Positions 737 to 62,825 of a DNA stretch of 64,000 bases are shown here, piece by piece. Under the pieces are notes generated by a model, which did not search any database, was not told the origin of the DNA, and worked only from the letters and a program-made list of their open reading frames with translations. Position numbers and translations under genes: made by a program. The number at the start of each line of letters is the position of its first letter. The first letter of the stretch is position 1. Source of the stretch: Haliclona indistincta (Eukaryota > Porifera > Demospongiae > Haplosclerida > Chalinidae); contig OZ024783.1 in the NCBI GenBank assembly GCA_964017065.1, positions 11,374,885 through 11,438,884 on the forward strand. Direction: 5' to 3'.

Positions 737-2867
737 TTGCTTCTGATGTGGAGTTTATTCAACTGATTTAAGTTGGAAAGTAGCACACCAAGTGAAGAAT
801 GAATCATAATAGATACAAGTGTTTTTGGTAGTTTAATTTTTTCCAACACAGCTTCATGATGTGGCTCAATCTTGAAGTAGTGAGGTAAAAGCAAGGTCTT
901 TAGATTTGGAAAGCTGCTAGAATTAACTAACTTTAATACACTATACTGTTCTCTTGGCAATAAAAGTGTAGATACAGACTTTGTAAAGGGAAAGAAATGA
1001 ATGAGTAAGTCTAAAGTTAAAGGACAATCAAAACGCGAAGAATAATCTGTGATATACAACCTAAGTGATGGACCAGTTGTCTCATCCCAGTTAGTTCCAA
1101 TGAGATTGTGCAAATTATCAGCCAATTTACGCACCATATTATACATTTCAAAATCTAATTTCCATGTGGTAGTATTTCCACTGTTAACAATACAGTAGGC
1201 TAAAGCATAATAATCCACTGATGAAAACATTTTTAAATCTATTGAACGAATAGTTTTATTAGTGAACACTTCAGATACTAGTCGAGGAGATTGAGCTTCA
1301 AGAAGCAACTGATATATTAAAATATCATGATTAAGATTTTTAGATATCACATGCTCAAATGGAAATGACTTGAGTTTTGTGAGACCAGCCATAAACAACA
1401 CAATAGGCCAACTACCTCTATAGTTGTGATATTTATGTTGCTCATAGACCGACTGTATTGTAGTTGGTTCCATTAAGTTAGTTGGTTGTTGATCAGGATG
1501 TTCGTACCAGTATAGAGCTGCTAAATATTCTTGTATGGTGAGGTGTAGAAACATGTAGGATGTTGAATCACCTACTTTAATTCTTTTTAACTTTCTGACA
1601 GGTACCATTAAACCTAGCATTTCATCTGGAGCTTCAGTAAATACATATTGACCACTTTTCAGTCCATTCGCAGCAAACTCAGCTATAATCATTAATTGAC
1701 TTTTCACATCTTCAGGAAGTGTTTCCTTATCAGAATAATTTGCAGGCATATTATGTCTCAAAAGATTGAAGACAAGAGATTGGTACAATTCTGTTAATGT
1801 GCTAGGAACAAACCCCTTCTGTCCATTTTTCCAGTAATCGATGTATATCTCTGTTACAATAGCACAGTGGAGAGGATTATACATGACAGATAATATAAAG
1901 GAATTTTTAGAAACATAAGAATGAAAGTCTACTAGCAATTGTTGATCATCTTCACATGCTGAAGTGATGTATGACTGAATGTCAGCTTCAGTAAAACCAG
2001 CAATTTTTATGTACTGTTGTAAGCGTTGCATGAATTGTGGAGGTAGGTTGTACATAGCAGTTGGCCGGGTAGTAACCACAACTGTAGCCTTGCTAAGAAG
2101 CTTATTTGTAAGAATTTTATAGATGAGCAAAAACTCTTCACGTTGCATTTCTGAAATTTCATCATATCCATCAAGAAATATGAGTAGTCCCTTTCCTTCC
2201 CTTTCCTTTATGTCTCGTTCAATGGCTTGCCTGGTGTCGTCGTTTGGGTGGTAGAACAGGTCGTAAAGATTACTGGCCTTTCGTGTGTCTTCATCTCTTA
2301 ATTCAACAATCACCATTAGGTCCCACTCATGGTGTAACTTGCCTTCTCTCCATAACCTGCACAGCTGCCAGCACAATGTTGATTTCCCTATTCCTGGGTC
2401 TCCTTCTACGAGGACAAAATGTGCTGCTGTCCTTCCACCATCTAATAATCCTATTTCTTCTATTTTCATAGCTGTATCTTTTTTATTTAGCTTGTCTACT
2501 TCTCCATGCAGCAAGAACTCTTGTTGTTGACGAAATACACTACTGTGTTGATTCTTATCTCTGTGGACCAGCACTAAATTGATTGGGTATTTGGGATGAC
2601 GATTAGTAAAAACGGGTGATGAATAAAGAGGAAAAGGATCGGTGTAGCAATCCTCTTTAAGGTATCTCTGATATTCCACAAGTGACTCAGGAAGTGTTGA
2701 CAAGGAGAAGGACACTAAGAAAGATTTCCAAATTATTGCAAGGAGAATGACAAGAAAAATCACCAGTAAACATATTCTTGGACTAAGAGAATGCTTTCTT
2801 GATAAATTTTTCATTGGACGAGAAGAATCTGATGTGAACGATAAATTTTTCATTGGACGAGAAGAAT
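737..2867 (-). CDS. NLR-like protein, TM-NACHT exon (copy 1)
   Basis: Large exon of an NLR-type NTPase. The open frame runs 733-2928 (731 residues from an ATG at 2928). In ORF numbering it has a hydrophobic segment at about 52-75, Walker A GDPGIGKST at 176-184, Walker B ending LDGYDE at 252-257, a sensor-like TTRP at 286-289 and leucine-rich C-terminal sequence. These order as a NACHT domain with helical and winged-helix parts. The stop codon lies inside a perfect donor (AA then GTAAGT at 736-731), so translation probably continues into LRR exons beyond the left edge. A CAG acceptor precedes 2867 and fits in phase with the DEATH exon at 4105, which makes this exon 3 of a 2A-DEATH-TM-NACHT gene. 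An alternative start at 2928 would give a DEATH-less form. NACHT call is firm; exon linkage is inferred from phase. Confidence 0.85.
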
Positions 2868-2878
2868 CTGATGTGAAC
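2801..2878 (-). repeat. 39-bp tandem duplication over the NACHT-exon acceptor
   Basis: Two adjacent 39-bp units (2801-2839 and 2840-2878) encode the same 13 residues, NLSFTSDSSRPMK, twice. Each unit contains the CAG acceptor candidate, so either site gives the same frame and differs by 13 residues. The second NACHT copy has one unit only. Confidence 0.9.
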
Positions 2879-4104
2879 GATAAATTTAAATTAACGGCAC
2901 ACATGTAACTCATAATTATTTTTGACATTATTGACTGGTACCATTAAAATGGCGGGTAAAGAAATTATAATAAAAAATTATTCATAAGAAAATGCAGGAG
3001 TGCACGGCAAAGATACGGATTTTTACTAGTAAATTTTATTAGTTACAGTGTATAGATAAAATTATAGATAAAATTGTGGTTTCAGACTTTGTTCTCTCCA
3101 AAAAGTAAGTGGATTTTCTATTATTATGATGCCTGGGGTTCGCAATTCTTTGTTGATTCCGAATCTAGATTTTTATTAAAGGGTTAACCACCTTAAAATC
3201 CTTCGTCCTCTATTTTCTTACAGAAACTGCCTCAAATGATTACTCAGAACGCTTAGAGTTCATTTCGAACACTGGAGCATTTCTAGCAAGATTTGCCAAA
3301 ATCTCATTAACCTTTTAGATACTGAATTATTTTGACAAAAATTCTAAACTGACAGTTTGTCTTGCGATTTACGTTAACTGTTCCAAACTATAGCACTGTT
3401 TTCCACTGGCATGTCAAAATTTAAGTGCTGCAACCTCGTCATTTTTCAGCCAAGTTTGGTATTAAATTAACACTGCATGGTGACTGATACAAAAACCTGG
3501 TGGTGCCCAGGTGAGCAAACAGCACAGTTTAGGCCATTATTATAATTTTTATGCCAAAGTATGCATCTCCGGGAACCCTGAAGCCCTAATAATGCTGAAA
3601 GCGACAAGGGGCTCTGCCCCTTCGCACCCCGTGTTAATGGGGAACACCCCTTTAAAATCCCCCAGTTCTGTACGTTTTAGTGGGGAGAGCGCGACGAAAA
3701 ACAGTGTTTTTTTCAGATAAAGTTGTGTCCACGCATGAGGGCAAAAACTAATACTTTTGCATTATAATTATCAGAAAATAATTATTAGCAGTTTTGTCCC
3801 ACAAACTGCTTACTTCGGTATACAGTGGATCAAAATTAATGGTACTCAACTTATAAAATTAACTGCACAAGGGTTGATAGACTCAAATTTGACTAGAAAT
3901 TATGTATCATGCATAAAATTATTATTCATTGTCCACACTCTGTAATTATAATTATTATAGCACACTGATAGCACAACTATTTTTACAAACTCTTCCTGTC
4001 CAAGATTTCGGATTACCATTACAATTACAATTATGTAATTGGTTACAATTACCTTTACAACATCACTGGTATGTTCTATCAATGCTCTCGCTACATGCGC
4101 ATAC
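2879..4104 (-). other. candidate intron between DEATH and NACHT exons
   Basis: No exon recognised. It starts with the donor GTATGC after the DEATH exon and ends with the CAG before 2867. It contains an interspersed repeat at about 3305-3725 that is also present at 46549-47155. The rest is AT-rich, with no coding signal. Confidence 0.5.
3305..3725. repeat. interspersed repeat, relative of 46549-47155
   Basis: Long stretches match the element in the dipeptidase intron, including the segment around CCTGGTGGTG and the GGGGCTCTGCCCCTTCG hairpin. The left end resembles the ATTAACCYTTTA terminal of the other copy; the right end is not preserved. It is probably a non-autonomous DNA transposon. Confidence 0.6.
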
Positions 4105-4578
4105 CTTCAATATGATCAGCAAGTGCACCTAGCTCGGACAGCCTGAGACACTCTATCAGGTGATGATATGTACGAGGAGCTTCACTACTAGCCAGCCATT
4201 TCTTAATGATAGCACGCACAACTTCTTGAACATCATTATTGTGATTTTTTTCGATCACACGAACCCCTTCTCCATTCTCATCTTGTAGAAGATGCATACC
4301 AAATGTGATGTAGTCTTGAGCAGCAATCCTCTGAATAATATTAAGAAGCTTGCCATTGACTCTCATTTTCCCAAGGTATAGTAGCGTAGGTGTACTGTCT
4401 GTATCAATACACAAACACAGATCATGGCTTGCTGTCGACGAGCCCCTCCCTGGGCCCACCCAAACCTACCTAGGTCTAGAGCAGGACCCGGGTTGAGTTC
4501 TACGTCTCCGGACAGCAAGAGTAGTCGTTGTTCCAATGCACAGATCATCGCGTTTGCTCGAGATTCGAGCCGGGTCAT
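4105..4578 (-). CDS. 2A leader exon plus DEATH-like exon (NLR copy 1)
   Basis: Two exons joined by a 71-bp intron (4399-4469, GTAGGT...ACAG). Exon 1 (4470-4578) encodes 36 residues ending in a 2A-like ribosome-skipping motif, GDVELNPGP, preceded by a leucine-rich run. Skipping would release a 31-residue leader. I chose the ATG at 4578 because it gives a leader the same size as the third copy at 36032; an ATG 10 codons later is possible. Exon 2 (4105-4398) encodes about 98 residues with a DEATH-like helical pattern, including KKWLASS and LGALADHIEG. It ends in donor GTATGC in phase 1, matching the acceptor of the NACHT exon at 2867. Phases agree at both junctions. The 2A motif is unambiguous; the DEATH call rests on pattern only. 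Confidence 0.78.
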
Positions 4579-10908: not shown

Positions 10909-13900
10909 TTACACGACTTGAGTAAAACGTTTGGGCCAGTGTACATGTCGACCAGAGCGAGTAGTGCGAGTGTTTGGTGTTGTTGGTGCTGGTGTCTTTG
11001 GCTGTGTTGTTGGTGTTGGTGTCTTTGGCTGCGTTGGAGTAACTTGTGTTGTGGCAGGTGTTTCGTTAGATTCAATGTAAGCTGGCTTCAAGCGATGGAC
11101 TGATATGGTGTCCTTGCGATTGTGCAATTGTAACACAAAGTACTTGTCTGTGCGTTTGATGACAGGATATGGTCCATCGTATGGAGGTTGTAGTGGTTTG
11201 CGGACTGCGTCATGTCGGATGAAAACATGTGACGCTTTTAGGAGTTCAGCTGGTATTGAGTTCTTGCACTGAGAGGTGCGGGGAGGGACTGGACGAAGTT
11301 TCTGAATATGCTTCTTTAACTGATTTACATAGTCTGAAGGATCCGCAGTAGTGTGATCGATGGAGGTAGAGAAGAATTCTCCAGGTAGGCGAAGTGTGGT
11401 ACCATACACCATCTCAGCAGCTGTGGTCGAGATGTCAGTTTTGAGTGCCGTCCGAATACCCAAGAGAACAAATGGGAGAGCATCCATCCATGCTGATGGG
11501 TTTGGTTGGGCTTTGAGAGCTGACTTCAGGTGACGGTGGAAGCGTTCAACCATACCATTGGATTGAGGGTGGTATGCTGTGGTGCGGGAACGTTTGGAAC
11601 CTGTAAGAGACATCAGAGCTTGCCACAGGTTTGATTCGAATTGACGACCACGGTCTGTTATGATCTGTGAGGGTGTACCAAAGCGAGCGACCCAGCCATG
11701 GAGGAAACCTCGTGCTACTGATTCAGCAGTAATATCTGTGAGAGGAATAGCTTCTGGCCATCTGGTGAACCGATCAATGCAGGTGAGAAGGTAAGTGAAG
11801 CCATGAGATGGTGGTAGAGGACCAACTAGATCCACATGGATTGTGTCAAACCGGGCGTTTGGTGTGAAGATAGAGGCTGGTGTTGTGGAAGCATGTCGCT
11901 GAATCTTTGCTCGTTGGCACGGTATACAAGATTGTGTCCATCTGCGGATGTCAGCGTTGATGCCGGGCCAGACAAATCTTGCAGTGATCAGTCGTTGGGT
12001 AGCTCTGATACCAGGATGTGACAAACCATGTAAGGAGTCAAATACAGTTCGTCGCCATGGAAGAGGTATGAGGGGGCGTTGGATACCAGTGGAAACATCA
12101 CAAAGGATCGTGTTTTTTGAATTGTGGAGTGGAATTGGTTTCACAACCAGAGGAGAGGTAGGAGAGGATTCCAAAGCACGTATTTGACGATCTGTCTGCT
12201 GCTCCTTGGCTATGGCGGAAAAGTCTAACTCTGGAGGTTGACCGGACAATAAAGCATTGGTTTCAATGCGTGAGAGTGTATCGGCAACAACATTGTCTGA
12301 ACCTTTGATGTGACGGATGGTGGATGTAAATTGGGAGATGAAGTCCAGCTGACGAGCTTGTCGAGGAGAGTGTCGATCTGGGCGGGAGTGTAAGGCATAA
12401 GTCAGCGGCTTGTGATCAGTGAGTACGTGGAATAAACGACCTTCAAGGAAGTGTCGAAAGTGGTGAATAGCTAGGTAAACAGCGAGTAGCTCTCTGTCGA
12501 AGGTACTGTACCTAGTTTGTGTGGGTGTTAGCTTTCTTGAGAAGAATGAGATTGGTTGCCAAGTTCCATTGACGAACTGCTGTAAGACTGCTCCAACTCC
12601 AGTGTCAGATGCATCAGTAACCAGAGAAGTAGGGGCATCAGAACTTGGATAACAGAGTTGTGTGGCATTCACCAGAGCATCTTTGATTGCATAGAAGGCT
12701 GATAAGGTTGCATCGTTCCAGATAAGGACTTGTGATTTGGGTTTGGAACTGTCAAGTAGTGAGTGTAGTGGGAGCATTAGTTCGGCGCAGTGAGGAAGGA
12801 AGCGATGATAGAAGTTGACCATGCCAACAAACTGTCTCAAGCTGCGCTGCGTGGTTGGTAGAGGGAATTCACGGATAGCGTCAACTTTGCTTGGTAGGGG
12901 AGTAATACCCTTGTTGCTGATGTGATGTCCAAGAAAATCGAGTTCAGGGGCACCAAAGAGGCATTTGTTAGGATTGATGACGACACCGTATGTAGTAAGG
13001 CGTTCGAAAACCAGTCTGAGGTGCTCAAGGTGTTCCTCTTTGGAGTTGCTAGCGATGAGTACGTCGTCAATATAAGCGTATGCAAATGACAAACCTCGTA
13101 GCACTTGATCCATGAATCGCTGGAAGGTCTGAGCTGCGTTCCTTAATCCAAAAGGCATGCGAAGAAACTCAAACAGTCCGAAGGGAGTAGTGATTGCTGT
13201 TTTGGGAATGTCTTCTGGAGCGACAGGAATCTGATGGTATGCCCGTACTAGGTCTAATTTGGAAAAGATGCTAGTACCTTGTAGCGATGATGAGAAGTCG
13301 TGGATGTGAGGGATTGGGTAGCGGTCAGGTTGAGTGCACCAGTTTAGAGAGCGGTAGTCTCCACATGGGCGCCAATCACCAGGTGTCTTTTTGGGCACCA
13401 TGTGAAGAGGTGATGACCAGGAACTGGAGGATGGGCGTATGATCCCTAGCTGCATCATGTGTTCAAACTCCTGCTTGGCTACTTTGAGCCTATCTGCTGC
13501 AAGTCTGCGAGGGCGAGCTGAGACAGGGGAACCTGTAGTATCGATGTGGTGGGTAATGTTGTGTTTGACTGTGGTGTTAGGAGAGGACACATTAGTGAGA
13601 GAGGGAAAATTTGTTAACAAGTTGAGATAAGGATTATTGTTACTTTTAGGGAGGATACATGGGCTAGGTGAGTGTTCAGGGGAGAGAATGCCTTGAATAT
13701 GTAATTGTGTAGCTGTGTCGATCAGTCTGCGTTGTTTCATGTCCACCAATAATCCGAAATGTTTGAGAAAATCGGCTCCGATGATTGGTTTCTGCACATC
13801 AGCCATGATGAATAACCATGAGAAGGATCGTCGGAGTCCAAGATTGAGAGTGAGGGACTGTTTACCATACGTCGAGATAGGTGTAGCATTAACGGCAGTG

Positions 13901-14100
13901 AGAGTAAGTTTGTCTGGTGTGCGTTTGGGAGAGGTAGAAGGAATTACACTAACTTCAGAACCAGTGTCGACAAGAAAATGTGTATGGGTATGTGCGTCTG
14001 TAACGTAAAATAGAAGGCGACTATTAGAGTTGGAGCCGGTATCGCTTGTCGCCGCTAGCGTCCGGCTGGGGAGTTTCCCCAGCTGCATGGTTCCTGACAC
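10909..14100 (-). CDS. pol: Ty3/gypsy Pol polyprotein
   Basis: An open frame of 1063 residues. Aspartic protease DTG at residues 45-47; reverse transcriptase with LDLVRAYHQ near 282-290 and YIDD at 343-346; RNase H with VTDAS near 494-498, E537 and TDHK at 561-564; integrase with an HHCC zinc finger (H691, H695, C725, C728) and a DDE triad at D757, D816, E852. The C-terminal region is proline/threonine-rich. Domain order PR-RT-RH-IN is that of Ty3/gypsy. The frame is -1 relative to gag and overlaps it by 46 nt, so Pol is most simply made as a Gag-Pol fusion by frameshifting at 14073-14079. No internal stop or missing catalytic residue was seen. It copies and integrates the element. Confidence 0.96.
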
Positions 14101-14972
14101 TTCTTGGCAGCCTCTCCAAACTTGTGATGGTACCAGCAGAGAGGATGTGAGTCAGGCGTGGGCGTTGGTGGTCGGCGTGGGCGGGACAAACTTCGTTTGC
14201 GTTCTCTGGGTCTGGTGGAAAGTGATGACACGAGTTCAGTCAGACGGGACACCTCAAGTCGGAGTTCTTTAATGTCTGCTTGGACTTCTTCAGAGTATCC
14301 TGAGCGGTTGCTGTGAATGGCTGAGATGCTTGGTGCACGGCCACCAGCTACATCGATTATCTTGTCAGCCATGTCAGCGAGTTTGTCGACGTCCACTGTA
14401 GCCGCATCAGCAGAAGCGAGGATCATTCTTACGCTGTCTGGTAGGCGCTGGAGGAACAACTCTCGGACTAAGTTCTTGGCGTCGGGCGAGGAGCCGAGTT
14501 GTTCTCCCAACAGTTGCTGCATACGACGGAGTAGCTGTGTTGGCTTCCTGTCACCTAGCTCTTCGCCGCTGATGAGTTGCTGGAGTTTCCGTTGTTCTGA
14601 GGCGGCAGTGCGCTTGATCAACTGTTCTTTCAGTTTATCGTATGGAGTGATCGTGGGTGGTTTGAGGAGCAGATCACGGACCTCGGTTGCGAACTCTGGA
14701 CTCAGAGAGCTGACTACATAGTCGAAGCGAGTCTTCTGCGCGATGATGCGTCTTGTGGTGAACTGCGCTTCGACCTGCGCAAACCAGACTTCTGGGTCTG
14801 CAGGCCAGAATGGAGGGAGTTTGATGGTGACGGCGCTGATGGCTGGAGTGCTGCTTAGAAGAGAACCTGTTGCTAAAGGTGAAGCCGTGGAAGTTGTAGC
14901 AGTACCGTCTGAAGCTGAAGCCGTGGAGCTTGTAGTAGAGCTTGTAGTTGCGGTAGAGGAGGCTGTAGACAT
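14055..14972 (-). CDS. gag: Ty3/gypsy Gag
   Basis: 305 residues from the ATG at 14972, just after the primer-binding site. A Ser/Thr/Ala-rich N-terminus is followed by a capsid-like helical region (from about [20 protein letters not shown]), a basic stretch ([14 protein letters not shown]) and a C-terminal Cys/His motif ([15 protein letters not shown]), which matches the zinc-knuckle-like end of many invertebrate Ty3-type Gag proteins. It forms the particle and binds element RNA. The stop at 14055-14057 lies 15 nt after the slippery site, so most ribosomes should terminate here. Confidence 0.92.
14058..14084 (-). promoter_or_regulatory. -1 ribosomal frameshift site GGGAAAC
   Basis: On the minus strand the gag codons TGG GGA AAC contain the canonical X XXY YYZ heptamer GGGAAAC (14079 to 14073) in the correct zero frame. 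Slipping back one base continues directly in the pol frame. The heptamer sits in a potential hairpin (CTGGGG, loop AAACT, CCCCAG), and a CGCTAGCG palindrome lies just downstream. Confidence 0.85.
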
Positions 14973-14976
14973 GATG

Positions 14977-14995
14977 GACTAGTCGGGGTCACCAA
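14977..14995 (-). promoter_or_regulatory. primer-binding site candidate
   Basis: The minus strand after the 5' LTR reads TTGGTGACCCCGAC. The TGG pairs with a tRNA CCA end, as expected for a tRNA-primed LTR element. I have not assigned the tRNA. Confidence 0.75.
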
Positions 14996-18592: not shown

Positions 18593-19079
18593 TTACGTAT
18601 AGCCACAGCCAAAAGTAATTCTGTGTTCAAGATTTGAAAGGAACTGTGAACATTTCTTATGATCAAGAAATCTCAAACGGAGTTTGTTCACACGACTGTG
18701 TGCCATTGCATCAACTAATATTTTAGCAACATCGATATCACAGTCAAATCCATGCTTGATTAGTAGTACTCTACAATGTCCTATTGAAACTTCATCCAAA
18801 GTTGTAGTCTGAGTCAACAACTTTGCCAGTGACTTAGCCTTTTCAATAGTAAGATGACAATTATAATTCAGTTGTTTAAGTTGACTACTTGCTATGGCTG
18901 CACTGAGTTCATCAAATGCACTGTCAGAGACGTCATACATTTGAAAAGTTAGCTGTTCAAGACCATAACTGAGCAACTCAGTAATTCTTTCTAGACAAAG
19001 ATCAGGGATATCATAAAACAATGATTCTAATATAAGAACTTTCAGCTTTTTTCCTGAGAATTTGACGAGTGATTGGCAC
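18593..19079 (-). CDS. LRR exon, candidate C-terminal exon of NLR copy 2
   Basis: Open from an acceptor (CTACAG before 19079) to a TAA at 18593, 162 codons. The product starts CQSLVKFSGKKLKVLILES and contains SAFDELSAAIASSQLKQL and AKSLAKLLTQTTTLDEVS, leucine-rich repeats with the spacing of NLR sensor domains. The phase fits exactly: the NACHT exon ends in AA before its donor (22263) and this exon begins with G, making a lysine codon. The stop overlaps GTAAAT, a weak donor, so more exons are possible. The 3.2-kb intron would contain transposons. LRR type is clear; linkage is inference. Confidence 0.6.
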
Positions 19080-19420
19080 CTGTAGTTGCTATTAGGATTA
19101 GAAGCAGTAATACAGTCAATAAGATACTAGCTATAAATAAATAGTGAAAGATTACGCTCTTCATGTGCAAGACACACATTATTTTGCAAATTGTACATAT
19201 TTTTGCATTTAGTGCAACATAACACTCGTCCTGACATAAATTTAATTTTATGTCTGGTCACTATCAGCACATCCATACTTTCATCACAAAGTAAAGCTAA
19301 AATTTGATCCATCAACTGTTACCAGACTTCACATATTGCAGGCAAGCACGAATAATATTGTGAAGCTGTCTGCATTCACGATTGTTTACAGGAGCCCATA
19401 ATGGGAACTGTCTTGCAAAA

Positions 19421-21376: not shown

Positions 21377-22263
21377 GTGATCCCTGATTCAGTGCTATAA
21401 TCTAGAGAGGTCATTTAAAAAAATGTGATTGCTATAAAGTTGGTGAGCTGCAGCCTGTCATTGTACTAATGTTTTATGCAAATTTGCTCAAAAACCCAAT
21501 ATAAGCCTGTAACTAAGGATAAACTCGATGGCAGCATTTTCATACATACGTTGACAAAGGCAGTAGTGGGAGTCAGCAGGTTCTACATATAAGTTAGACG
21601 TGGAGGCCCTGGGATCTACGCTGTTTAGAAACCGAGGCGGGCTTGTTGTGACGACCGAGCATAGCGAGGTCGTTGCTAATCAATTTCATTGGTTAACATC
21701 CTCACACTATACTCTAAAACATGCAAGGTCATACTATTCTATAGACGGTTATTGCGGTAGGCATTCATAACTGAATTTCTTTACAATCCAGACTCACTTG
21801 ATCATTCTACATTGATATGCCCACTATTGTGACGTAACTTCAGTGTTTACTACAACTGTAAATGCTAGAATTTTTCACATTGATCCATAACCTATCATAT
21901 GCCTATTCGTAGACTAGTGTCCGGGTTTTATCCAGAGGGGGGCGGAGGGGAAGCTTCTCTCCAGCTCCCCAGTAATCAATTAAACAAAATGCAAATTAGA
22001 TATTATAATATACTAGTCTAACAATTTCGAGTCTTTACAAAGTGTTACAACAGCGTCAGTTCTAATTTTGATAAGCTTATGAATATTAATCAGCAGACTT
22101 TTAAAACATGTACTGCATCTACCCCCAAATTTGTTTCTGAATGAAACAGCGAGTGTCCACTAAAATACTGATTGCACTGGATACAACATGCATGACTGAT
22201 AGGTATGAGATAACTAAAACCTGAGGGCACTATTATTAAGAAAATTTAATAGATGATACTTAC
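21377..22263 (-). other. intron/3' flank of NLR copy 2
   Basis: Similar to 1-736, with an extra roughly 170 bp at 21577-21745. It begins at the donor of the NACHT exon. No exon is recognised. Confidence 0.6.
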
Positions 22264-24316
22264 TTGTCATTTTCTATAATGTGGAGTTCATTCAACTGAT
22301 TTAAGTTGGAAAGCAGCACACCAAGAAAAGAATCAATCGTAATAGATACAAGTGTTTTTGGTAGTTCAATTTTTTTCAACACATCTTCATGTTGTGGCTC
22401 AATCTTGAAGTAAGGTAAATACAAGGTCTTTAGATTTGGAAAGCTGCTAGAATTAACTAACTTTAATATATCATGGTTGAAAGATGGCAGTTCTGATGGA
22501 AATGAAAGTGTAGATACAGACTTTGTAAAGGGAAAGAAATGAATGAAGAAGACGTCTAAATAAGAACAAGAATGATGAAAAGGCGAAGAACATTCTAATT
22601 GAAAATACAACTCAATTGATGGACCAGTTGTCTCATCCCAGTTTGTAGTTCCAATGTAATTGTGCAAATTATCAGCCAATTTATGCAAATAAACAATATA
22701 TTTATATTGAAATTGCCATGTGGTAGTATTTCCACTGTTAACAATACAGTAGGCTAAAGCATAATATTCCACTGATGAAAGGGAAGATACATCCATATAA
22801 TTTGAAGTTGTATTAGCGAACACTTCAGATACTAGTCGAGGAGATTGAGCTTCAAGAAGCAACTGATATATTAAAACATTACCATTATAGTCAGACATCA
22901 CACGCTTAAATGGAAATGACTTGAGCTTTGTAAGACCAGCCATAAACAACATAATAGGCCAGCTACCTCTTTCGCGATATTTATGTTGCCTATAGGCGGA
23001 CTGTATTGTAGTTGGTTCCATTAAGTCAGTTGGTTGTTGATTAGGATGTTCGTACCAGTATAGAGCTGCTAAATATTCTTGTAGGGTGAGGTGTAGAAAC
23101 ATGTAGGATGTTAAATCACCTTCTTGACGTTTTTTTAACTTTTTGACTGGTACCATTAAACCAAGCATTTTATCTGGAGCTTCAGTAAATACATATTGAC
23201 CCCTTTTCAGTCCATTCGCAGCAAACTCAGCTATTATCATTAATTGATTTTTCACATCTTCAGGAAGTTTTTCCTCATTGGAATAATTTGTAGGCATACT
23301 GTGCCTCAAAAGAATGAAAACGAGAGATTTATAAAGTTCTGTTAATGTGCTAGGAACAAACCCCTGCCGTCCATTTTTCCAGGAATCGATGTATATCTCT
23401 GTTACAATAGCACAGTGGAGAGGATTATACATGACAGATAATATAAAGGAATTTTTAGAAACATAAGAACGAAAGTCCTCTAGCAATTGTGGATCATCTT
23501 CACCTCGGCATGCTGAAGTGATGTATGACTGAATGTCAGCTTCAGTAAAACCAGCAATTTTTATGTACTGTTGTAAGCGTTGCATGAATTGTGGAGGTAG
23601 GTTATAAGTAGCAGTTGGCCGGGTAGTAACCACAACTGTAGCATTACTAAGAAGCTTATTTGTAAGAATTTTATGAATAACCGAAAACTCTTCGCGTTGG
23701 AATTTTGAAATTTCATCATACCCATCAAGAAATACGAGCAGTCCCTTTCCTTCCCTTTCTTTTATGTCTCGTTCAATGGCTTGCCTGGTGTTGTCATTTG
23801 GGTGATAGAACAGCTCATAAAGATTACTGGCCTTTCGTGTGTCTTCATCTCTCATTTCAACAATCACCATTAGGTCCCACTCATGGTGTAACTTGCCTTC
23901 TCTCCATAACCTGCACAGCCGCCAACACAATGTTGATTTCCCTATTCCTGGGTCTCCTTCTATGAGAACAAAATGTGCCGCTGCCCTTCCACCATGTAAT
24001 GCTCCTATTTCTTCAATTTTCATAGATTTCTCTTCTTGAAATAGTTCATGTACTAAATTGATTGGGTATTCTGGATGGCAATCAGAAAAAACTGGTGATG
24101 AAGAAAGAGGAAAGGGATCGGTGTAGTAATCCTCTTTAAGATATCTCCGGTATTCCACAAGAGATGACGATGAAGAGAAGAACACTAAAAATAACTGCCA
24201 ATTTATAGCAAAGAAAATGACAAGAAAGGACACAACAAACACTAGTAAACGAACACTTGGAATCAATGACAAAACTCGATCCTTTCTGGATACATCTTTG
24301 TTTGGATGTGAAGAAT
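22264..24316 (-). CDS. NLR-like protein, TM-NACHT exon (copy 2)
   Basis: Paralogue of 737-2867. A transmembrane segment (VFVVSFLVIFFAINWQLFLVFF), Walker A GDPGIGKST, Walker B FLDGYDE and TTRP are all retained. It lacks about 30 residues that copy 1 has between NLV and MKIEEIG, and has one rather than two copies of the 13-residue repeat. No ATG opens the frame: a TAA lies just upstream, and codon 1 of the longest ORF is TTG. A strong acceptor, a polypyrimidine tract then CATCAG before 24316, shows it is an internal exon. It ends at donor GTAAGT in the same phase as copy 1 and joins in phase to the LRR exon at 19079. Its 2A/DEATH exons survive only as a remnant at 27679-27902, so this copy may be non-functional. 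Confidence 0.8.
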
Positions 24317-24742
24317 CTGATGTGAAGAATAAAGAAAAAAATTAATGACACTAGTGTACACTACACTAACTGATATTATTTTAGTGCCAAATCTAGTTGC
24401 TTTAAATACCACCAAGAGAAGTTTGCGTGCTATTGGTAAAATTTAGTTTTGCCAGTGACAAACGGTGATCATAGCAATAGTATTTACTTAGGCTAACAGC
24501 TAAACATAAGAACTGCTTCAGCAGGATTGAACCACAGGGACACCGGAAGCTCAACCTGATTGCTCCCGTTCATTAATTATTCATTTAAAATGCGCACATA
24601 AAATTTATGTTAATCAGATAACTTAATTGATCCCAATTAATCACTACTTAGAGGCCGGAGTTCACTGGAAAGCCTAGAATATGCTACCACTGCAAAATTA
24701 GTATTCATGCTTTGCAAGCACAGTGTTTTGCCGGCAAAAGTA
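24317..24742. other. AT-rich flank, no gene seen
   Basis: Probable intron upstream of the NACHT exon. No coding signal or recognisable repeat. Confidence 0.4.
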
Positions 24743-27427: not shown

Positions 27428-27678
27428 GATTAAGAGTGCAGAGTCACGCCCACACATGTACTTTGGGCTGGTTGCTAGGGGATTGTATCTCAGAGATCAC
27501 TGCTGATATTCCAAGAAACCAAAAACCTATGCTACAAGACTGGCGAAGGCTGTACACATTACAAACCATGAGCGCTGAAAGTGCCAGGCGGAAACGTGAC
27601 GGGCATGCACGGCTAGATACAACGCTTAGGCTAATAAAATTTTGTTTCACTCAGGCAGTAGAACTTCAGAGTGTGCAT
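27428..27678. repeat. repeat R4 (also at 43429-43665)
   Basis: About 240 bp shared with the IMPase intron, starting AGxGTGCAGxGTCACGCCCAC and ending at TCAGGCAGT. It interrupts the DEATH exon remnant at its right side. No coding function was recognised, although a plus-strand frame is open. Confidence 0.7.
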
Positions 27679-27902
27679 AAATCCTCTGAATAATTTTAAG
27701 AGGCTTGCCATTGACTATCATTTCCTCAAGGTATAGTAGCGTAGGTGTACTGTCTGTGTCAATACACAAACACAAATCATAGCTTGCTGTCGACGAGCCC
27801 CTCCCTGGCCCACCCAAACCTACCTAGGTCTAGAGCAGGACCCGGATTGAGTTCTACGTCTCCGGACAGCAAGAGTAGTCGTTGTGTCAATGCACAGATC
27901 TC
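27679..27902 (-). pseudogene. remnant of 2A and DEATH exons (NLR copy 2)
   Basis: The exon 1 remnant (27824-27902) retains ICALTQRLLLLSGDVELNPGP and the donor GTAGGT. The intron (27754-27823) keeps its CAG acceptor. The exon 2 remnant (27679-27753) retains only the first 25 or so codons, to IIQRI, before repeat R4. The initiating ATG is lost where the repeat block beginning at 27903 abuts. Both ends are truncated, so this cannot supply NACHT copy 2. Confidence 0.85.
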
Positions 27903-33640: not shown

Positions 33641-35160
33641 AGCTGCTTTAAACCAAAAGTGTACCTAAGCTAAGTAGAGGTGATTGAAAACCTACCTTCT
33701 TTACTAAATCTGGTTATTCTTCACTAACAGCTGCTATATGAACACGAGTTCTTATAGCTGTATGATTGAACTAACAAGAGGTGTGATTTTGGAACCGTAG
33801 AGCAAACCATGCGCCCGTGGCAGGTAAAAAGATGCCGACTCTCGTACGTTGAACGCAGAAGCGACATTTTGGGTGTGTGTGGGCGTACCCGTTCCCAATA
33901 AGGTTATGACTCTGGTTATGACCCATTAACCCTCGGCGCATGCGTGAGGGTTACGGTACTTGGTTTGTCATTAACCCTCAGCGCATGCGCGAGGGTTACG
34001 GTACTTGGTTTGTCGTTCGTTCTGTCCAACGAGTTGCAGAGACCATCGCTCACTTCTGAAACTCGGTAAAGGTATGAACAGGCTTAGCACGACAATGGCT
34101 TGCAATGTGACTCGTGGATTTTGCTAAAGTGCTTTCGTTCTCGAGTTATGTATGGCTGGCTCACCTTGACAGCCATCTTGGACCTCTCTGACGACAAATG
34201 TGCCCATAGTTGACTACCTATATGTACTTGTAGATTCCATCTAAACTTCAGGACAGCTCTAGGGGTGCGTAGACAACTCAAGAAAATTAAAGCCTGTCAA
34301 TAGGGTTGGGCGACATATCGATATTTCGATATTATCGCGATACACACAGGCATGATATATCGATCGTAGACTAAATGAACTATGCGATATTATCGCCGCA
34401 CGATTAATATCGCCACATGGTACTAGTTTGGTGGAAGAGTAATAGCAGCGTATTTCCATTGCTTTTAAGTTTGGCAAGAAAATACCTGTGTGTGCCGGGA
34501 ACAAGTGTTCTGTCAGAAAGGATATTCAGCAAAGAAGGCCTCGTTGTGGATCCATTTCGTAGTCGTTTGAAGCCTGACCATGTAAACACTCTCATTTTTT
34601 GTCAAAGAACTTAAATTAATTTTCCCCCCAAATTTTTTTGAGTAATAATTATCGTGATAATATTGAATATCGTGATAATTTGTATTATGATAATCGCCAG
34701 ATGATATTTTTGGTATCGCCCAACCCTACCTATCAAAGCCTACCTACTCAGTGATCACAGTCACGCCCACTTGTCTTGTGGTTAGCACTTTGCTGTCTTC
34801 TGGTTAGCAGTGCAGTTTCAATAGCAAGCAGGTTGGCTTTAGCTGCAAAGCTCCTTCTGCAAACCATAACTTAGGGGGCAATGTGCAACACGCCAAGGGT
34901 TTTGTGAAATCTGTTCATTCTTAATCAAATGATACCCAAGCTTCAAGTGTCTATACTGTATTCAAGGAGGGCTTAAGGATTTATGGTACTTGAATCATTG
35001 CCCCAAGATCAATGAGGCATCAGCTAGTGTGACAACATACCAGAACTACACTATATTAACACATTACATTATAGTGACTCACTTTCATAAGTGCTGCAGA
35101 CATCTCTGATTGATTTAGCCAGTGCTCCTGGGAGATCAGCCTTCTCAATGGACTCAGCTA
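33406..35160. repeat. segmental duplication X2
   Basis: Partner of 27903-30757. It carries a 44-bp tandem duplication of the AACCCTCGGCG end (33927-34015) not present in X1, and ends inside the DEATH exon. Confidence 0.85.
34301..34728 (+). mobile_element. non-autonomous hAT element with dimerisation-domain ORF (copy 2)
   Basis: 428 bp with the same ends and target duplication as 28748-29192. The open frame 34417-34614 is identical in translation. It was copied as part of the segmental duplication, not by separate insertion, because the flanks match. Confidence 0.88.
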
Positions 35161-36032
35161 GTGACCTCCATGTGCGGGAAGCAGCATGATCATTAGGATC
35201 GTCATCAGCCAATTCTAACCACTTGTGGAACATCTTGTCAACAAATTGATCACTTTCTGGAAAACTATTTTTAATCTGTTTAATAGTAGCGGCATGATCT
35301 TCACTAAACAAGATCTCGGAAAGGTCTTGATAATTTTCACACGCAGCAATCTCTTTTTTCACTCGAACGTGTGGCTTAGTTTCATCTTGTTTACACAGAC
35401 TTATCAACTGACATATAGTTGGTCTATCATCTGTGGAATACAACAGTCGTGAATTTCACTAACTGTGACAAGGGTAGTATTGATCATCATCAGTAATTTT
35501 ATGCCAAATCGGCTTCAAATGATCGAAATCGTGCAGTTCTACAATAACAACACCAAGTTCGATGCACCAAAACATATATAATGTACAAACATTATAATGC
35601 ACCAAAGTTCGGATTATGGTGCCAAACAGGACTTTGTGATTTCATTGCGTGATTTTGAAACTGAAAACATAAACCCATTGGTTACGAATTTACTAGTAAG
35701 TCGGATAGTAAAGTGATTTATTTTGTCACACAACAAAACAAGTTTTAATTTATGTTAGTACTGTGGTTTTATGGTGTTTGGTGCATGGAATTTAACTTAT
35801 TAGTATTTCTAGACGGAATCAATCAATTACTGAATTCCTATAGCTTCATATTTTGTTTGCTGTACACACACTACAAGCTTTGTACAACACCTTAGACAGC
35901 CAATAGACTACAAGTGATTGAAGACGACTCACTCAGTGTAGGCCCTGGGTTAAGCTCCACATCACCGGCTAGTATCAGCATCAGGTAGACTAGTGTACCC
36001 TGCAGTCTCTCAGAGCTGTTGATCACCGCCAT
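35083..36032 (-). CDS. 2A leader plus DEATH-like exons (third copy, orphan)
   Basis: Exon 1 (35933-36032) begins with ATG at 36032 and encodes a 30-residue hydrophobic leader ending LILAGDVELNPG, with P at the start of the downstream product, then donor GTGAGT. Exon 2 (35083-35430) starts after TTCCACAG and encodes about 116 residues with a DEATH-like pattern (KMFHKWLELADDD, SRTWRSLAESIEKADLPGALAKSI). Both junctions are in phase; intron 1 is 502 bp. Exon 2 ends in a GTGAGT donor in phase 1, the phase accepted by NACHT exons, but no NACHT exon follows: the next sequence is the duplicated repeat block. Either the gene is truncated or distant exons are used. Sequence is diverged from copy 1, so it is an older paralogue. 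Confidence 0.72.
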
Positions 36033-36283
36033 AGTATCAGGCTTGTGATCTAGATGTCGGCTGCGGATTGCTAGAACGAGAACAGCGATAAGAAGTGCGC
36101 TCGCGGTGCTCGTCAGTGAGTGAGAGATTGGTCAGCCAGACAATGACAAACAGCTAACTAGCACTAGCAACGGCGCAGGACACAGCTGTCACACCGAGTG
36201 GATAATAAGGGGTTGTCATCCGCCTCCTCGCACAGGCCGGAAATAGCCAGTAGAGTAAATTATCTATATTCGGTCACACCGTT

Positions 36284-40552: not shown

Positions 40553-42242
40553 ATGGATAGTCAGGAGCAGTGGCGGATCTAGGATTAGCAAATAGGGGGG
40601 GGCAGCGAAAATTTTTGCTAATTAATATTCATTTATTCATTAAAATCGATCGATTTTATTGTTATTCATTGATGATGTACGCGCGCTAAGCATGATCGTC
40701 GATCGCTTGCACTTTTCAAGCGCTTGGATCGAGATGCTCTGGCGTTATGCCTGTCTAGTATAGTATAGCGAGCCAGATGTGACGCGTGAGATGTAAATAA
40801 TAAAATGGCGGACAAGATTTTAGGGGGGCCTTGCCCCCCCTGGCCCCCCCTAGATCCGCCACTGGTCAGGAGAAGTTTACCAGAGCGATTTCGTATGGCC
40901 TTGAACGTGTTGGTAAAGCTGATATTCGAATGAAGGATCATCAGAGTAAGGCTGTTCGGTATGTGTATGACAAGCATGACGTTTTCATTTGGCTCCCTAC
41001 TGGCTATGGCAAATCATTGTGCTACGAGATTCTACCCTACGTTTTTGACAGTAAACTAGGTACAGACAGCAGTGTAGTCCTCGTGATATCTCCGTTAGTG
41101 TCCTTGATGATTGATCAAGTCCAAAGTTTGAAAGCAAGAGGTGTGCCAGCTGCAATTTTAAGCGGAAACACATCAGGTGCTTACCAAGGATGCAGCAATC
41201 TGCTTGCAAAGGACAGCGAGTTGAGTGACGGAAGGTACAAGTTGCTGTTTGGTGCTCCAGAGGCTATTCTTGGCGGTGCAAGGTGGCGGGAGATGTTGCA
41301 AGAAGAACCATACTCTACACATGTGGTCGCTGTTGCAGTAGATGAGGCCCACTGTGTATCAAAATGGTATAGAGATTATCATATTGTACTTAAAGTTATT
41401 GTTATTATTCTTTTAGGAGCAGTACATTCAGACCAATCTATGGGAGAATACACGAACTGCGTGCATTTGTTCCATCAGGTACACCTTTTCTTGCGTTGAC
41501 AGCTACAGCTACTGCTTCGGTGAAGCTGGAGATTGTAGAAAAACTAGACATGACTGGTTGTGCAAGTGTATCTGTTTCTCCAAATCGTCCTAACATTTTC
41601 TATGAGGTGAAAGTCCGTACTGAACTTTCTAATCTCGATTACATTGTTCAATCTCTCAAAGTGAGCAATATTCAAGCTGAGCGCATCATCATCTATTGTC
41701 GCTCCTTAAATATGTGCGCTAATCTGTATGAGTATTTTCTTGATGCTTTGCAAGATAAATCATACTATTCACCAACTTCAGAGCATGTAGCTAGTAATCG
41801 TTTGTATGGCATGTTTCATGCACATACTCCTCAAGACAACAAAACTGCCATTCTTGCTAGTTTGAGTGACTCGAATGGTGTAGTTCGTGTTATATTTGCT
41901 ACTGTCGCACTTGGAATGGGAGTAAATATGGCTGGTGTGAATCACATCATCCACTATGGAGCACCTCACAGTATGGAAGACTACATGCAGGAGAGTGGTA
42001 GAGCTGGTCGGTCAGGAGAGCAAGCTTTGTCTGTAGTGTACTGGAAGCCAGCTGATGCTCCTCTCAAAAAGGAATTAAAGACAAACAGAGACAAAGAAAT
42101 TGCTGCGGTAAGGCATTATCTAGAAAACACAAGCACATGTCGACGTGTTCAGCTACTCAGTTACTTTGATCATACCTTTGCTGCCGAACCTATGCACGTA
42201 GATAAAACTCTCTGTTGTGATGTTTGTAAAAGTGACAAATAA
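40553..42242 (+). CDS. RecQ-like DNA helicase, 5' end disrupted
   Basis: ATP-dependent 3'-5' DNA helicase of the RecQ type. Exon 1 runs to 41366; a 50-bp intron (41367-41416) is followed by exon 2 to 42242. The joint gives DEAHCVSKW then SSTFRPIYG. Motifs: I GYGKS; II DEAH; III LTATAT; V/VI GMGVNMAGVNHIIHYG and QESGRAGR; a terminal CCDVC suggests the start of the zinc-binding region. No winged-helix or HRDC domain, so it is a short member. The original start is ATG at 40553, but a hAT MITE at 40568-40864 splits codons 5 and 6 and introduces a TAG in frame. Sequence after the MITE resumes in frame; the next in-frame ATG is near 40931, before motif I. It may be inactive or start internally. Confidence 0.85.
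40568..40864. mobile_element. hAT-type MITE in the RecQ-like gene
   Basis: 297 bp with ends CAGTGGCGGATCTAGG / CCTAGATCCGCCACTG and a perfect 8-bp target duplication GTCAGGAG (40560-40567, 40865-40872). Both the ends and the 8-bp duplication are typical of hAT elements. Confidence 0.96.
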
Positions 42243-48727: not shown

Positions 48728-51727
48728 CCTGCCAACCTCAAACTTCAAAAAACCTGGAGCTCATTAATATTCATGTTAATTAATTAATATTCATGTTAAT
48801 TAATTAATATTCATTATAATTTTAATTATTACGTCATTATTATTGTATCATTACTACGTCATTATTGTACTTGTCATGTGACATGTTTTGAAATTATTTT
48901 ATTGATTGCTAAAATGAAATATACAATGTCAGAAGATTCAAGAGCAGGATAAGAGCAGGATAGAGAAAAGAAAACGAGGAGTACAATGTACATTATGTCT
49001 TAATTCGATCTCTTATGCAGGTCGTTGTATGCCTTTGTCGCCCTTTTGGCTGTCTTTAACAAGTCCGTGGGAGGCTCCCAATCGATACAAGAATCTTGGT
49101 TAGCAAGTTTTATTTGAATAAGCGAAGATAGAGTTCCGTCAGTATTTAAACTTGATCTGGTTGGTGTTCGATTCAGTTTTATTAGAGTGAATACCCTTTC
49201 CTCTCCCGCATTACTATGAGGAATAGTAAGTATAAGCTTTGCTACTTTTGTGAGAAGTGCAAACCGAAAAGATGAGTCGATATTTTTGATTAGTGAAAGG
49301 TGACCCCATATGACATCCATTCTGTAGTAGCTTGTTCTTTGTCCTTCGTTTTCTACTTCATACACTGTTGCCTCTTTCCATAAATCAAGTGGAATTTCAC
49401 TTCTGTCTAGAAGCTGGTATTGTAGAAATTGTTCTTCCAAAGAATCCATCTGTGGAGCTGTGAAATTCAGCAAATCAGGATATTTTGAACAGAAATATTC
49501 TACTGACTCAAATGTGCACTCATTTCTGCCTTCAAAGTTAACAAATCTACAATGATTAAGAAGACAATCATTGAAGGGTAGAGTCTTCAAAGCCTGAGAA
49601 ACTGCTGTCACATAAAACTCTCTTACTCCTTTGTAGAAACACTTACATTGACGATCAGTAATATCACCTTCTTCAAGAAGTATATTCATTTTCTGCCTTG
49701 TCATAAAACCAACTGCTAACCGGTTGTCATCCAACTGATTTTCTCTATTTACAAAATGAACTTTGGTGAGATCCTCTTTTCTTGATCTAATAACATCAAT
49801 CTTTACAAACTTACTTAGTATTTTTTGCAAAAAATTGTGCAAAGCATCAGCTACCAAGTATATGCTGGGGTCTTCTCGTTGCAAAAGAAGATTTATACTA
49901 GTGAATGTTGGGAGGATAGACTGATAAAAAAAGAGATACACCTCTGTCATGGGCTCTTCAAAAACCACCTGCAATCTGTGAAATCTTGCCTGTGACTCCT
50001 CTTCACTCTTAAAGTAACTCACTAACGAAGCATACAATTGCAAGATTCTGTGCACTGATGTTTCCAAGCTTAACCATCGAACACTAACATATCGAACAAC
50101 TTCGCGATATTCTGTGTCACAGAATGAGCAAAATTCTCTGAAGGTACCTTTTCGTTTGGTGCTCTTGTCGAACCAATAATAGACATCGACACAAACATCT
50201 TCAACATCAAATTTCACCTCTTTCTGGAAACCATCAGAAGCACGGGACGCTATGTTGTGAATTAGGTGACATGGGCAACCCATGAAATAACAACTAGGGT
50301 GTTTTGCTTGTACTCGAGTCATTATTGAGTTACGTATTCCCAAATTAACACTGGTGTTGTCTACTCCAAATGCAACGCAGTGGTTCCATTTAACCTCGTG
50401 TTTATCCAGAACAGAATCGATCTTATTAAAAATTGATTGTGCAGTGCCACAATCTCTGCCTGATGTTGTGCACATGTCTAATAAGCATGTCACAACTTGC
50501 CTCCGGTTTGCATCATATATTCTGACTGTGAGTGGATTGAGTTTCTCTATTCCAGAATCGTTCGACCCATCAACTGCTAAACTGAAGGGCTCTCTCTTCA
50601 TTATGTCCAGCAAAGTTGCTATAATAATTGTAGGAGAGAAAAATAAGTTGCACTGTAAATTGTTACTTAAGCAAGTTCACCTTGAAAGTGTGGTGCAATT
50701 TCAAGGTTGATCATAGCAGTAGATTTGGTCCTGCAGCTTCCATACTCTTTTGCAATTTTGTTGTCAGGAAACAGGTCTCTGAACAACGGACTCAGGTGAT
50801 CACTCACAGCAATAGGAACATTGTGCTCAACCAAAAAGTTTGCTACCTTTACTTCTGCCCGTATCACCTACAATAATAGTTCATCAATAATTTTAAATTA
50901 ATTTTAATAAAGTTGTCATCACCTTTTGTTTCACTGGATCTGACTCAGTAGAAAAAGAAATTTTTGGCTGATTTTTAAGCTGTTTTGCCAAATTCCTGTG
51001 TGCTTGTGTGGCAACGTGTTCCTTGATGTCTTTACTACCTTGATGTCCACAGCTCAAATTTTTCTGACAAATGTTACAGCGAAACATATTAGGCTTATGC
51101 AGCACTGCAGATACAAAGGGCCATTCCTTCGTCCATTCCGATCCTTTGAAAACTTTGTCTTGTATTTGAATGAACCAGTGTATTTTGTCTTCTTACTGAC
51201 GGGTAGTGTAGCAATAGATTGATCTTCCTCTTCGGTAGCGTAACTGCAGCCAGAGTCATTGCTACTGCTGGTAGACGTATCCCCATCTGCATCAGCCATG
51301 ATCGTCACTCCTCAAATCAGTTCCAGTCAGCTAATATACTACTAATGGATACTAGCAGTGATTATACAGTGACTGTACTGACTCGAAAATCAACTCAGAG
51401 AATATTAGCTTTGCCTTTGGTACCAGCACACGTGTGAGAACCACGCCCTAGTTTTTATTAAAGTTTTTTATTAACTTAAAAAAATAATTAACTCCGCCCA
51501 CCTTGCAGTGCCTTAGTAATAATACTAGCTACAGGCTATAGCTACTGTACATGCTGGAGTTTTAGATCTTCACAACTGCTGTAAGAGTTGCTACTTGATT
51601 CATTGCTGTGAGTTGCTACAGGCTTGATTCTCTGTGCCAGGGAGAATTTGACATATCGCCGGGAGACCTGGAGAACAACCCAAAACCTGGAGACTCCCGG
51701 GAAATCCGGGAGAGTTGGCAGGCCTGG
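48728..51727 (-). mobile_element. autonomous-type hAT transposon
   Basis: Inverted ends CAGGCCTGCCAAC (48725-48740 region) and GTTGGCAGGCCTG (51713-51726) enclose a transposase gene. I could not identify an adjacent 8-bp target duplication, so the exact termini are uncertain by a few bases. Confidence 0.8.
49000..51299 (-). CDS. hAT transposase (3 exons, one frameshift)
   Basis: Exons 51299-50923, 50867-50681, 50618-49000, with introns of 55 and 62 bp and consistent phases between exons 1-2 and 2-3. Exon 1 encodes an acidic Ser-rich N-terminus and a BED-like zinc finger (FRCNICQKNLSCGHQGSKDI...H..H). Exon 3 has LAVDGSNDSG and GVDNTSVN (acidic catalytic positions), GCPCHLIHNIA, SVRWLS and the C-terminal GEERVFTLIKLNRTPTRSSL dimerisation region. 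Near 51160 the frame shifts by +2 (or -1) nt ahead of WTKEWPFV, so the copy is probably inactive unless this is a sequence error. Confidence 0.82.
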
Positions 51728-56716: not shown

Positions 56717-56989
56717 CAACCTGCTATACTGTGACACCAACTAGAACTAGCTTTTATTGTTCTATTATTCATTTTACATTTCTGTATACTCGTCTTCACT
56801 TCAATTCTTTTATGGTTTAAATAAAATTAAATTTTTCATCGATCACCTCAAACATAATACATAAGTTGCTTGTGCTTGTTGATTCAAAAATCTTGCATAG
56901 GTGTAATTCTTGAGTTAATGTTACTGTAAGTAAACTGCTCTATAGTATGCATTCACGAGATTACTTTCCTTTGAGGACAGCCGGTACTA
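56717..56989. other. intergenic spacer
   Basis: Contains AATAAA near 56819, suitable as the polyadenylation signal of the coiled-coil gene. The last 120 bp resemble the upstream regions of the next two receptor genes (ACATAAGTTGCT...TGTTGATT). Confidence 0.6.
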
Positions 56990-59293: not shown

Positions 59294-59922
59294 AATGCCA
59301 TATTCCAAATTAAAGTGTGCATATAGTCAATGTACACAACATTAATGTGTATGTAGCTGCTGACAGTGCTATAGTAGATATCTCGTATTGCTCATGTAGA
59401 TTATGCTGTAATTTTCATTGTCCTTCAATAATAAAATGCAATTGGTGCTTCCAGTTATAACAAGATTACGGCAGTTTAAATTTGTAAAAAATGCAACTTT
59501 TGCTTCTTGCATCTATGGGCCGTCCGGACACCTACAAACTGTTCAATATACCAAGCCTACTAGCTGCTATAGAGACTAGTCTAGTTTAATTGATCAACCC
59601 GTCAAATTTTAGCGTAAGCAAACATCAAAATTTGATGAATGCTAGCACATTTCTTTATGGTACACTGGTTCAATGTGCCCCTGTTGTTACTAATGAGTTA
59701 TAATCCGAGTATAGCTGGTTTTCCTTGACAACAGCAAGCTATGGACATAAAAATTAGATGATACATAAGTTGCTGTGCTTGTTGATTGTAAAATTTACTG
59801 CTGAATTCACTATCCATGTTCAGTATGCATTCGTGTGATGTTTTGATCCTTTGAACACAGTTAGTACTAATGACGGAATCAGGTGCAAAATTAGTGATTC
59901 TTCACAGACATTCTCCGTCAAG
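59294..59922 (+). promoter_or_regulatory. receptor spacer with uORF before gene 2
   Basis: Spacer repeated before gene 3. An upstream ORF starts at ATG 59871 (MTESGAKLVIL...), 18 codons, and its TGA stop overlaps the receptor start as ATGA (59923-59926). The arrangement is conserved before gene 3, where the uORF starts at about 62774. In gene 1 the equivalent ATG (56990) is in frame with the receptor instead. Confidence 0.65.
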
Positions 59923-62169: not shown

Positions 62170-62825
62170 AATGCCATATTCCAAAAAGTGTACATAGTCA
62201 ATGTACACAACATTAATGTGTATGTAGCTGCTGACAGTTCTATAGTAGATATCTTGTATTGCTCATGTAGATTATGCTGTAATTATCATTGTCCTTCACT
62301 AATAAAATGCAATTGGTGCTTCCAGATTATGGCAGTTGAAATTCGTAAAATATTACTTTTTGCTCTTCGCATCTATGGGGCTGTTCGGACAACTAGAAAC
62401 TTTATTTGACCACAGCTGTCCTGATAATCGATGTACAAACTGTTCAATATTATCATGCTTACTAGCTGCTATGAAGATTAAACGATCAACCAGTCAAAAT
62501 GTAGTGTCAGCAAACACCAAAATTTGATGAATGCTACCACATTTATTTATGGTACATTGGTTCGATGTGCCCCTGTTGTTACTTATTAGTATAAACTGAA
62601 TAATAGCTGGTTTTCCATGACAACAGCAAGCTATGAACATAAAATTAACAAATGAGATGATACATAAGTAGCTAGCAGTGCTTGTTGATTGTAAAATTTA
62701 CCACTGAATTGACTATCTATGTTCAGTATGCATTCGTGTGATGTTTTGATCCTTTGAACACAGTTAGTACTAATGACGGAATCAGGTGCAAAATTAGTGA
62801 TTCTTCACAGACATTCTCTGTCAAG
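62170..62825 (+). promoter_or_regulatory. receptor spacer with uORF before gene 3
   Basis: Closely related to 59294-59922, including the AATAAA near 62302 and the 18-codon uORF whose stop overlaps the next ATG. It has small insertions relative to the first spacer (for example near 62400). Confidence 0.6.

Follow-up and report, generated by a model that had tools for sequence, protein, structure and literature searches.

A predicted 2A-DEATH-transmembrane-NACHT receptor gene, found in a tandem array and on other contigs of the sponge Haliclona indistincta

Results

A gene of the NLR type with a 2A motif at its start

The stretch analyzed here, called the window, comprises 64,000 nucleotides of Haliclona indistincta (contig OZ024783.1, positions 11,374,885 to 11,438,884; C1:11374885-11438884 in the searched genome of 144 Mb in 46 contigs). 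Its minus strand carries a gene in which a 2A/StopGo motif, a DEATH domain, a single transmembrane (TM) helix, a NACHT-WHD-HD2 core and the start of leucine-rich-repeat (LRR)-like repeats follow each other in one frame. The original prediction placed a 2A exon, a DEATH-like exon and a TM-NACHT exon on this strand, with phases 1/1 at the junctions and a donor leading onward. This anatomy checked out, and the sequence analysis confirmed the three-exon assembly as real, which supports the original interpretation of the gene.

Exon 1 (4470..4578, 109 nucleotides) starts with an ATG at 4578 and encodes a 31-residue leader ending in LSGDVELNPG, followed by proline; the octapeptide DVELNPGP (4483..4506) is an in-frame instance of the D(V/I)ExNPGP motif of 2A/StopGo elements. 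Intron 1 (4399..4469) has the donor GTAGGT and the acceptor end ACAG, and intron 2 (2868..4104), which follows the DEATH exon (exon 2; 4105..4398, 294 nucleotides), has the donor GTATGC and the acceptor end TCAG. Exon 3 (737..2867, 2131 nucleotides) encodes the TM helix, the NACHT domain, WHD, HD2 and the first LRR-like repeats. Joined through the two GT-AG introns, of phases 1 and 1, the exons form a stop-free frame of 844 amino acids. Two in-frame acceptors located 39 nucleotides apart allow exon 3 of this copy to start at 2867 or 2828. An onward donor, GTAAGT, follows position 737, and the gene probably continues outside the window, since a conserved LRR-like exon was found beyond its left edge.

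Domain searches of exon 2 and of the joined product gave a Death score near the cut-off and a clear NACHT match. The NACHT domain (joined residues 285-438; 1957..2418, Pfam search) was recovered with an E-value of 6.7e-24 and is accompanied by WHD and HD2 of the NLR type, as expected for an NLR. In the structure model of exon 3, beta-alpha elements begin at residue 538, and its alignments with full-length NLRs extend to residue 709; the profile of the next exon displayed a weak match to an LRR protein (E 0.023).

The original prediction depended on a DEATH similarity at the profile level, and such a similarity was found. The Pfam Death score was 22.5 or 22.4 bits for exon 2 alone (two runs) and 19.5 bits in the joined protein, against a cut-off of 22.6. 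In the alignment of exon 2 with its relatives, 19 of the 21 members, exon 2 counted, matched Pfam Death at an E-value of 0.01 or better (best 1.1e-6), and the exon-2 profile matched the Fas death domain (E 1.8e-4). Together with three relatives on other contigs that score above the cut-off (see below), these matches identify an N-terminal death fold of the kind found in NLRs.

The membrane segment

Both the sequence and the structure model indicate a membrane-spanning segment in exon 3, with a hydropathy peak of 2.91 and a helix at exon-3 residues 29-52 (2710..2781). A hydrophobic segment was also present in 46 of 53 higher-scoring database homologues, as compared to none of 24 lower-scoring NACHT proteins; the two groups were divided by score rather than by a tree, and proteins with fewer than 120 residues before the Walker A motif or with no Walker A match were left out.

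Six of the eight array copies described below have no methionine codon in the stretch that runs from the preceding in-frame stop through the TM segment; a seventh copy has one inside the segment, and the window copy has several in this stretch. Thus, the six copies can have the segment translated only when splicing connects exon 3 to coding sequence upstream. A NACHT exon starting on its own, the outcome that would speak against the original prediction, therefore fails to account for the TM segment in these six copies, although the window copy does have methionine codons at this place.

The charges flanking the segment could be evaluated in 34 homologues, which are related to one another. The N-terminal side was more positive in 21, the C-terminal side in 7, and the two were equal in 6. 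By the positive-inside rule, this distribution hints, without being decisive, at a DEATH domain inside and a NACHT domain outside, which would be an odd arrangement.

A tandem array with a conserved core

Eight tandem copies were found at C1:11.375-11.514 Mb, spanning approximately 138 kb, and seven of these retain the order 2A, DEATH, TM and NACHT. Exons 1 and 2 are complete in these seven copies, among which the window copy is counted, and show 89-100% and 74-100% identity, respectively, to the window copy. The eighth copy is the second one in the window, also on the minus strand, and has a TM-NACHT exon in an open frame (22263..24341), a 2A exon remnant with no in-frame ATG (27825..27899), a shortened DEATH match of 31 residues only (27662-27754) and a weakly supported LRR-like exon (18596..19126). 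Intron 1 has the form GTAGGT...ACAG in all eight copies and is 67-77 nucleotides long in the seven that were measured. In two copies (L045 and L046) it stays open in frame, and its retention would extend the leader linker rather than stop translation.

We calculated the pooled ratio of nonsynonymous to synonymous changes (pN/pS) from seven of the eight copies, with the shortened copy dropped. Within exon 3, the ratio was 0.76 in the TM region, 0.31 in the NACHT domain and 1.47 in the C-terminal part; the 2A exon gave 0.54 and the DEATH exon, on few changes, 1.32. The contrast between a conserved motor and a rapidly changing C-terminal region is in keeping with a recognition receptor.

Diverged relatives on other contigs

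The exon-3 relatives considered here are the best 17 matches in the genome, from a search in which 63 of 674 candidates were scored. For eleven of the 17, an exact 2A motif is listed on the same strand within the 6 kb upstream; these are the eight array copies, two genes on contig C4 and one on C10. The C4 and C10 genes are about 50% identical to the array genes, and in each of the three, 2A and Death exons accompany a hydrophobic segment (2.51-3.22) and a NACHT domain. Their Pfam Death scores of 37.8, 28.3 and 31.7 bits all exceed the cut-off. The exons of the gene at C4:0.654 Mb join in phases 1/1, and the gene at C4:0.669 Mb has a stop within the DEATH exon and may be decayed. The architecture is not a chance assembly of exons, because it recurs among the tandem copies and again in the diverged genes on C4 and C10.

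2A motifs across the genome

Exact matches to DVExNPGP and DIExNPGP numbered 102 and 78, respectively, 180 in total, whereas the reversed patterns gave no match across the genome, which rules out a chance origin of the motif. Gene assignment was made for only a minority of the 2A sites. A NACHT hit was located at most 8 kb downstream on the same strand for 22 of 178 listed 2A sites, as compared to a mean of 0.8 and a maximum of 5 in 200 random placements, a control that disregards clustering and uses approximate lengths for three contigs. The 22 pairs are a lower bound, since only the best-scoring 102 of 631 NACHT candidates were listed. The reverse order, with NACHT upstream of 2A, was seen for four of the 178 sites, and among the listed hits no NACHT lay on the opposite strand.

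An exon-2-like DEATH hit was found at most 3.5 kb downstream of 26 2A sites. These cover 25 of the 150 listed DEATH hits, the best of 202 candidates, and neither of the other orientations gave any pair with them; most DEATH exons of this type that were listed lack an exact 2A in their vicinity. An array on C7 contains eight 2A-NACHT pairs, and the one that was read (L005) consists of 2A, a DEATH-like domain and NACHT, with no hydrophobic segment ahead of NACHT. From this gene and the 2A-DEATH pairings we infer that 2A-DEATH is a recurrent module and that the TM segment is confined to one receptor class. A database search with a 2A-DEATH query recovered NPGP in four of 66 homologues, which may be from the same species and two of which are only 50-52% identical; the remaining 62 show no NPGP, and some of them may end before the motif position.

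The leaders that precede the motif differ in hydropathy, with KD13 values of 0.39 to 3.18 across 34 loci; the strongest values noted were 3.18 (L010) and 2.79 (L032). The array leaders, in the seven copies with a start codon, are weakly hydrophobic by this hydropathy measure (1.49-2.15) and interrupted by QR.

Some 2A sites have other surroundings. At L032 and L033 (C3:12.765 and 12.775 Mb), one unbroken frame encodes both 2A and a DEATH-like domain; several homologues of this frame are annotated with Pfam Death. At L030 (C2:18290685), the motif is followed by a zinc finger that was judged by eye to be PHD-like and that presumably resembles those of non-LTR (long terminal repeat) retrotransposons. 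The minus strand of L051 (G000:C4:10636800-10642800) displayed eleven 2A-like sites in 6 kb, located inside short open stretches such as KDTAILSGDIETNPGPIASNRSE, some of which are repeated. The locus may represent a decaying array of repeats or, alternatively, a gene whose product is a series of peptides separated by 2A.

Other genes in the window

A distinct 2A-DEATH gene, of a different type, was observed on the minus strand (36131-35072), with an open frame (35895..36131) carrying the 2A motif (35941-35963) and a DEATH-like exon (35072..35455; HHalign probability 95.4, no Pfam match). 2A leaders resembling that of this gene occur at C3:15775663 and C3:16388314 (L036 and L037), and the interval between the gene and the next array copy contains no NACHT hit from the list of 102. 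Pfam searches further identified an LTR retrotransposon on the minus strand (10912-14978; reverse transcriptase, RNase H and integrase in one frame, a weak protease match and an adjoining DUF7041 frame), and, on the plus strand, RecQ-like helicase pieces (40804-42239; DEAD, Helicase_C and RecQ_Zn_bind). Three tandem frames resembling class C G protein-coupled receptors also lie on the plus strand (56975-63998; Pfam ANF_receptor and 7tm_3 matches in the first two). A hAT-type transposase-like frame on the minus strand (49003-50676) gave a weak match below the Pfam cut-off.

Discussion

We consider it probable, though by no means certain, that the tandem-array genes encode NLR-type receptors that work as follows. 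The spliced mRNA would encode a short 2A leader, a DEATH domain, a single membrane anchor, a NACHT-WHD-HD2 core and LRR-like repeats. The ribosome would skip the Gly-Pro bond after residue 31, so that the leader is freed and the receptor begins with proline; from the 2A chemistry described in PMC4981915 and PMC12846837, some unskipped or terminated product would be expected alongside it. The hydrophobic segment would hold the receptor in the membrane, and sensing of a ligand by the fast-changing C-terminal part would lead to NACHT oligomerisation, clustering of the DEATH domains and the start of signalling.

Several observations weigh against this reading. The junctions of the gene model are predicted from DNA. 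The Pfam Death score falls short of the cut-off by 0.1-0.2 bits for exon 2 alone and by 3.1 bits for the joined protein, the predicted DEATH model is poor (predicted local distance difference test, pLDDT, 54), and the pN/pS of 1.32 in exon 2, on few changes, gives no sign of purifying selection on this domain. Pfam LRR matched neither exon 3 nor the next exon, and no hydrophobic segment is present in seven of the 53 homologues. The array copies are young, with a mean synonymous divergence (Ks) of 0.16 in exon 3, and their likeness is therefore not independent evidence. In one of the C4 relatives only nine residues precede DVE, which may be too short. Finally, six of the 17 best TM-NACHT genes have no listed exact 2A, and the 3 kb examined for each of two of them, one DEATH-TM-NACHT gene and one TM-NACHT gene (L056), contained no NPGP codons. 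The wider TM-NACHT class can thus do without 2A.

The role of the 2A motif may also be another one. In the sea urchin, dual targeting by SpNLR 2A has been demonstrated in mammalian and plant cells (PMC4981915): the unskipped leader serves as a signal peptide. The same could apply here, with the unskipped form taking the secretory route and exposing its DEATH domain outside, and the skipped form remaining cytosolic or being inserted by its internal TM segment. The strongly hydrophobic leaders of L010 and L032 are compatible with such a scheme, but those of the array are not of this kind, and we regard it as unlikely for the array genes. Since the array leader has lower hydropathy and contains an interrupting QR, we favour, with modest confidence, a 2A motif that sets the amount of receptor and gives it a defined N-terminus over one that switches secretion. 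It is also rather improbable, in our judgement, that the motif is an inactive or retroelement-derived leftover at the start of NLR genes. The zinc finger at L030 points in this direction, and part of the motif's conservation in the array is due to recent duplication; 2A is in addition known from non-LTR retrotransposons (PMC4981915). However, the octapeptide is intact upstream of all eight array TM-NACHT exons and in three relatives of only about 50% identity, no NACHT or DEATH on the opposite strand was listed near 2A sites, and NPGP recurs in homologues as distant as 50-52%.

Two separate genes, a short 2A-DEATH gene (exons 1-2) and an independent TM-NACHT gene, are in our view very improbable. 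The window may contain a free-standing 2A-DEATH gene at 36131-35072, L056 is a TM-NACHT gene without a visible DEATH domain, and methionine codons precede the TM segment in the window copy; yet six of the eight array copies have none, the phase-1 splice sites match in the window gene and in one C4 gene, and the splice-site sequences are common to the array. The N-terminal helices of plant coiled-coil NLR resistosomes offer an analogy for a membrane-piercing device, and by this analogy the hydrophobic helix might be released on oligomerisation instead of serving as a resting anchor. The variable sequence of the segment at constant hydrophobicity would suit such a role, but a long, evenly hydrophobic helix with a mostly positive N-terminal flank resembles an ordinary single-pass anchor, and we consider piercing quite unlikely.

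A possible but doubtful extension of the receptor reading is that StopGo is a widely adopted expression device in this genome, heading several DEATH/NACHT receptor families, some of them anchored, and perhaps genes for multi-2A peptide strings. Skipping could then set the dose or topology of the anchored receptor, and a disturbed translation apparatus would alter the receptor that is made, so that the gene reports on the health of translation.

The finding is larger than first described: 2A-NLRs with a membrane anchor occur on three contigs, and 2A precedes DEATH and NACHT exons more widely in the genome. It suggests that a virus-type skipping trick has been built into animal immunity. Apart from retrotransposons and sea urchin NLRs, skipping by 2A has been regarded as essentially viral. 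That 2A heads DEATH/NACHT immune genes in another animal, on several contigs and here with an anchor, would imply either a repeated origin or an old part of animal immunity, and the array offers a compact system for asking why an immune receptor should open with a skip site and which side of the membrane NACHT works on.

The motif agrees with the viral 2A/StopGo consensus D(V/I)ExNPGP, which in viruses separates viral proteins; cellular use is called absent or rare in PMC12846837, and a 2024 paper cites NLRs, in a passage that names no species, as a cellular case of 2A (PMC11512398). Membrane segments are known from other NLRs. Anthozoan TM-NLRs likewise carry them N-terminally, with three to five segments as compared to one here, and the available part of that report mentions no 2A (PMC5094078). 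The sea cucumber AjNLR-new shares TM and NACHT and a reported membrane location, with NACHT reported as extracellular, but has an immunoglobulin domain and two TM segments, and no DEATH or 2A is apparent in the accessible text (PMC13133943). Closest in host are the NLRs of the sponges D. avara and A. queenslandica, for which the DEATH-NACHT-LRR category named in the original prediction is indeed reported; their families are greatly expanded and partly clustered, and both species have members that span the membrane. The part of the text available mentions neither the TM position nor a 2A (PMC12909245).

The 2A motif at NLR N-termini, which the original prediction noted for the sea urchin, is likewise on record (Roulston et al. 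2016, PMC4981915). SpNLR proteins form a large DEATH-NACHT-LRR family with 2A at or near the N-terminus, in 85 of 241 NLRs by a first count and as an N-terminal 26-residue 2A in 14 of 87 later NCBI entries. Twelve of those 14 leaders are predicted signal peptides, and sea urchin 2A leaders act as such when unskipped, whereas the array leader described here is poorly signal-like and lies on its own exon; a TM segment between DEATH and NACHT, as in the sponge gene, is not described in the accessible text. No report of 2A in sponge NLRs, or of 2A combined with TM-NLRs, was found in the open-licence literature. The original suggestion of an undescribed combination thus stands for the whole and not for its parts: 2A-NLRs and TM-NLRs were each already known, and what the literature search did not recover is the combination of 2A, DEATH, TM and NACHT and the scale on which it occurs.
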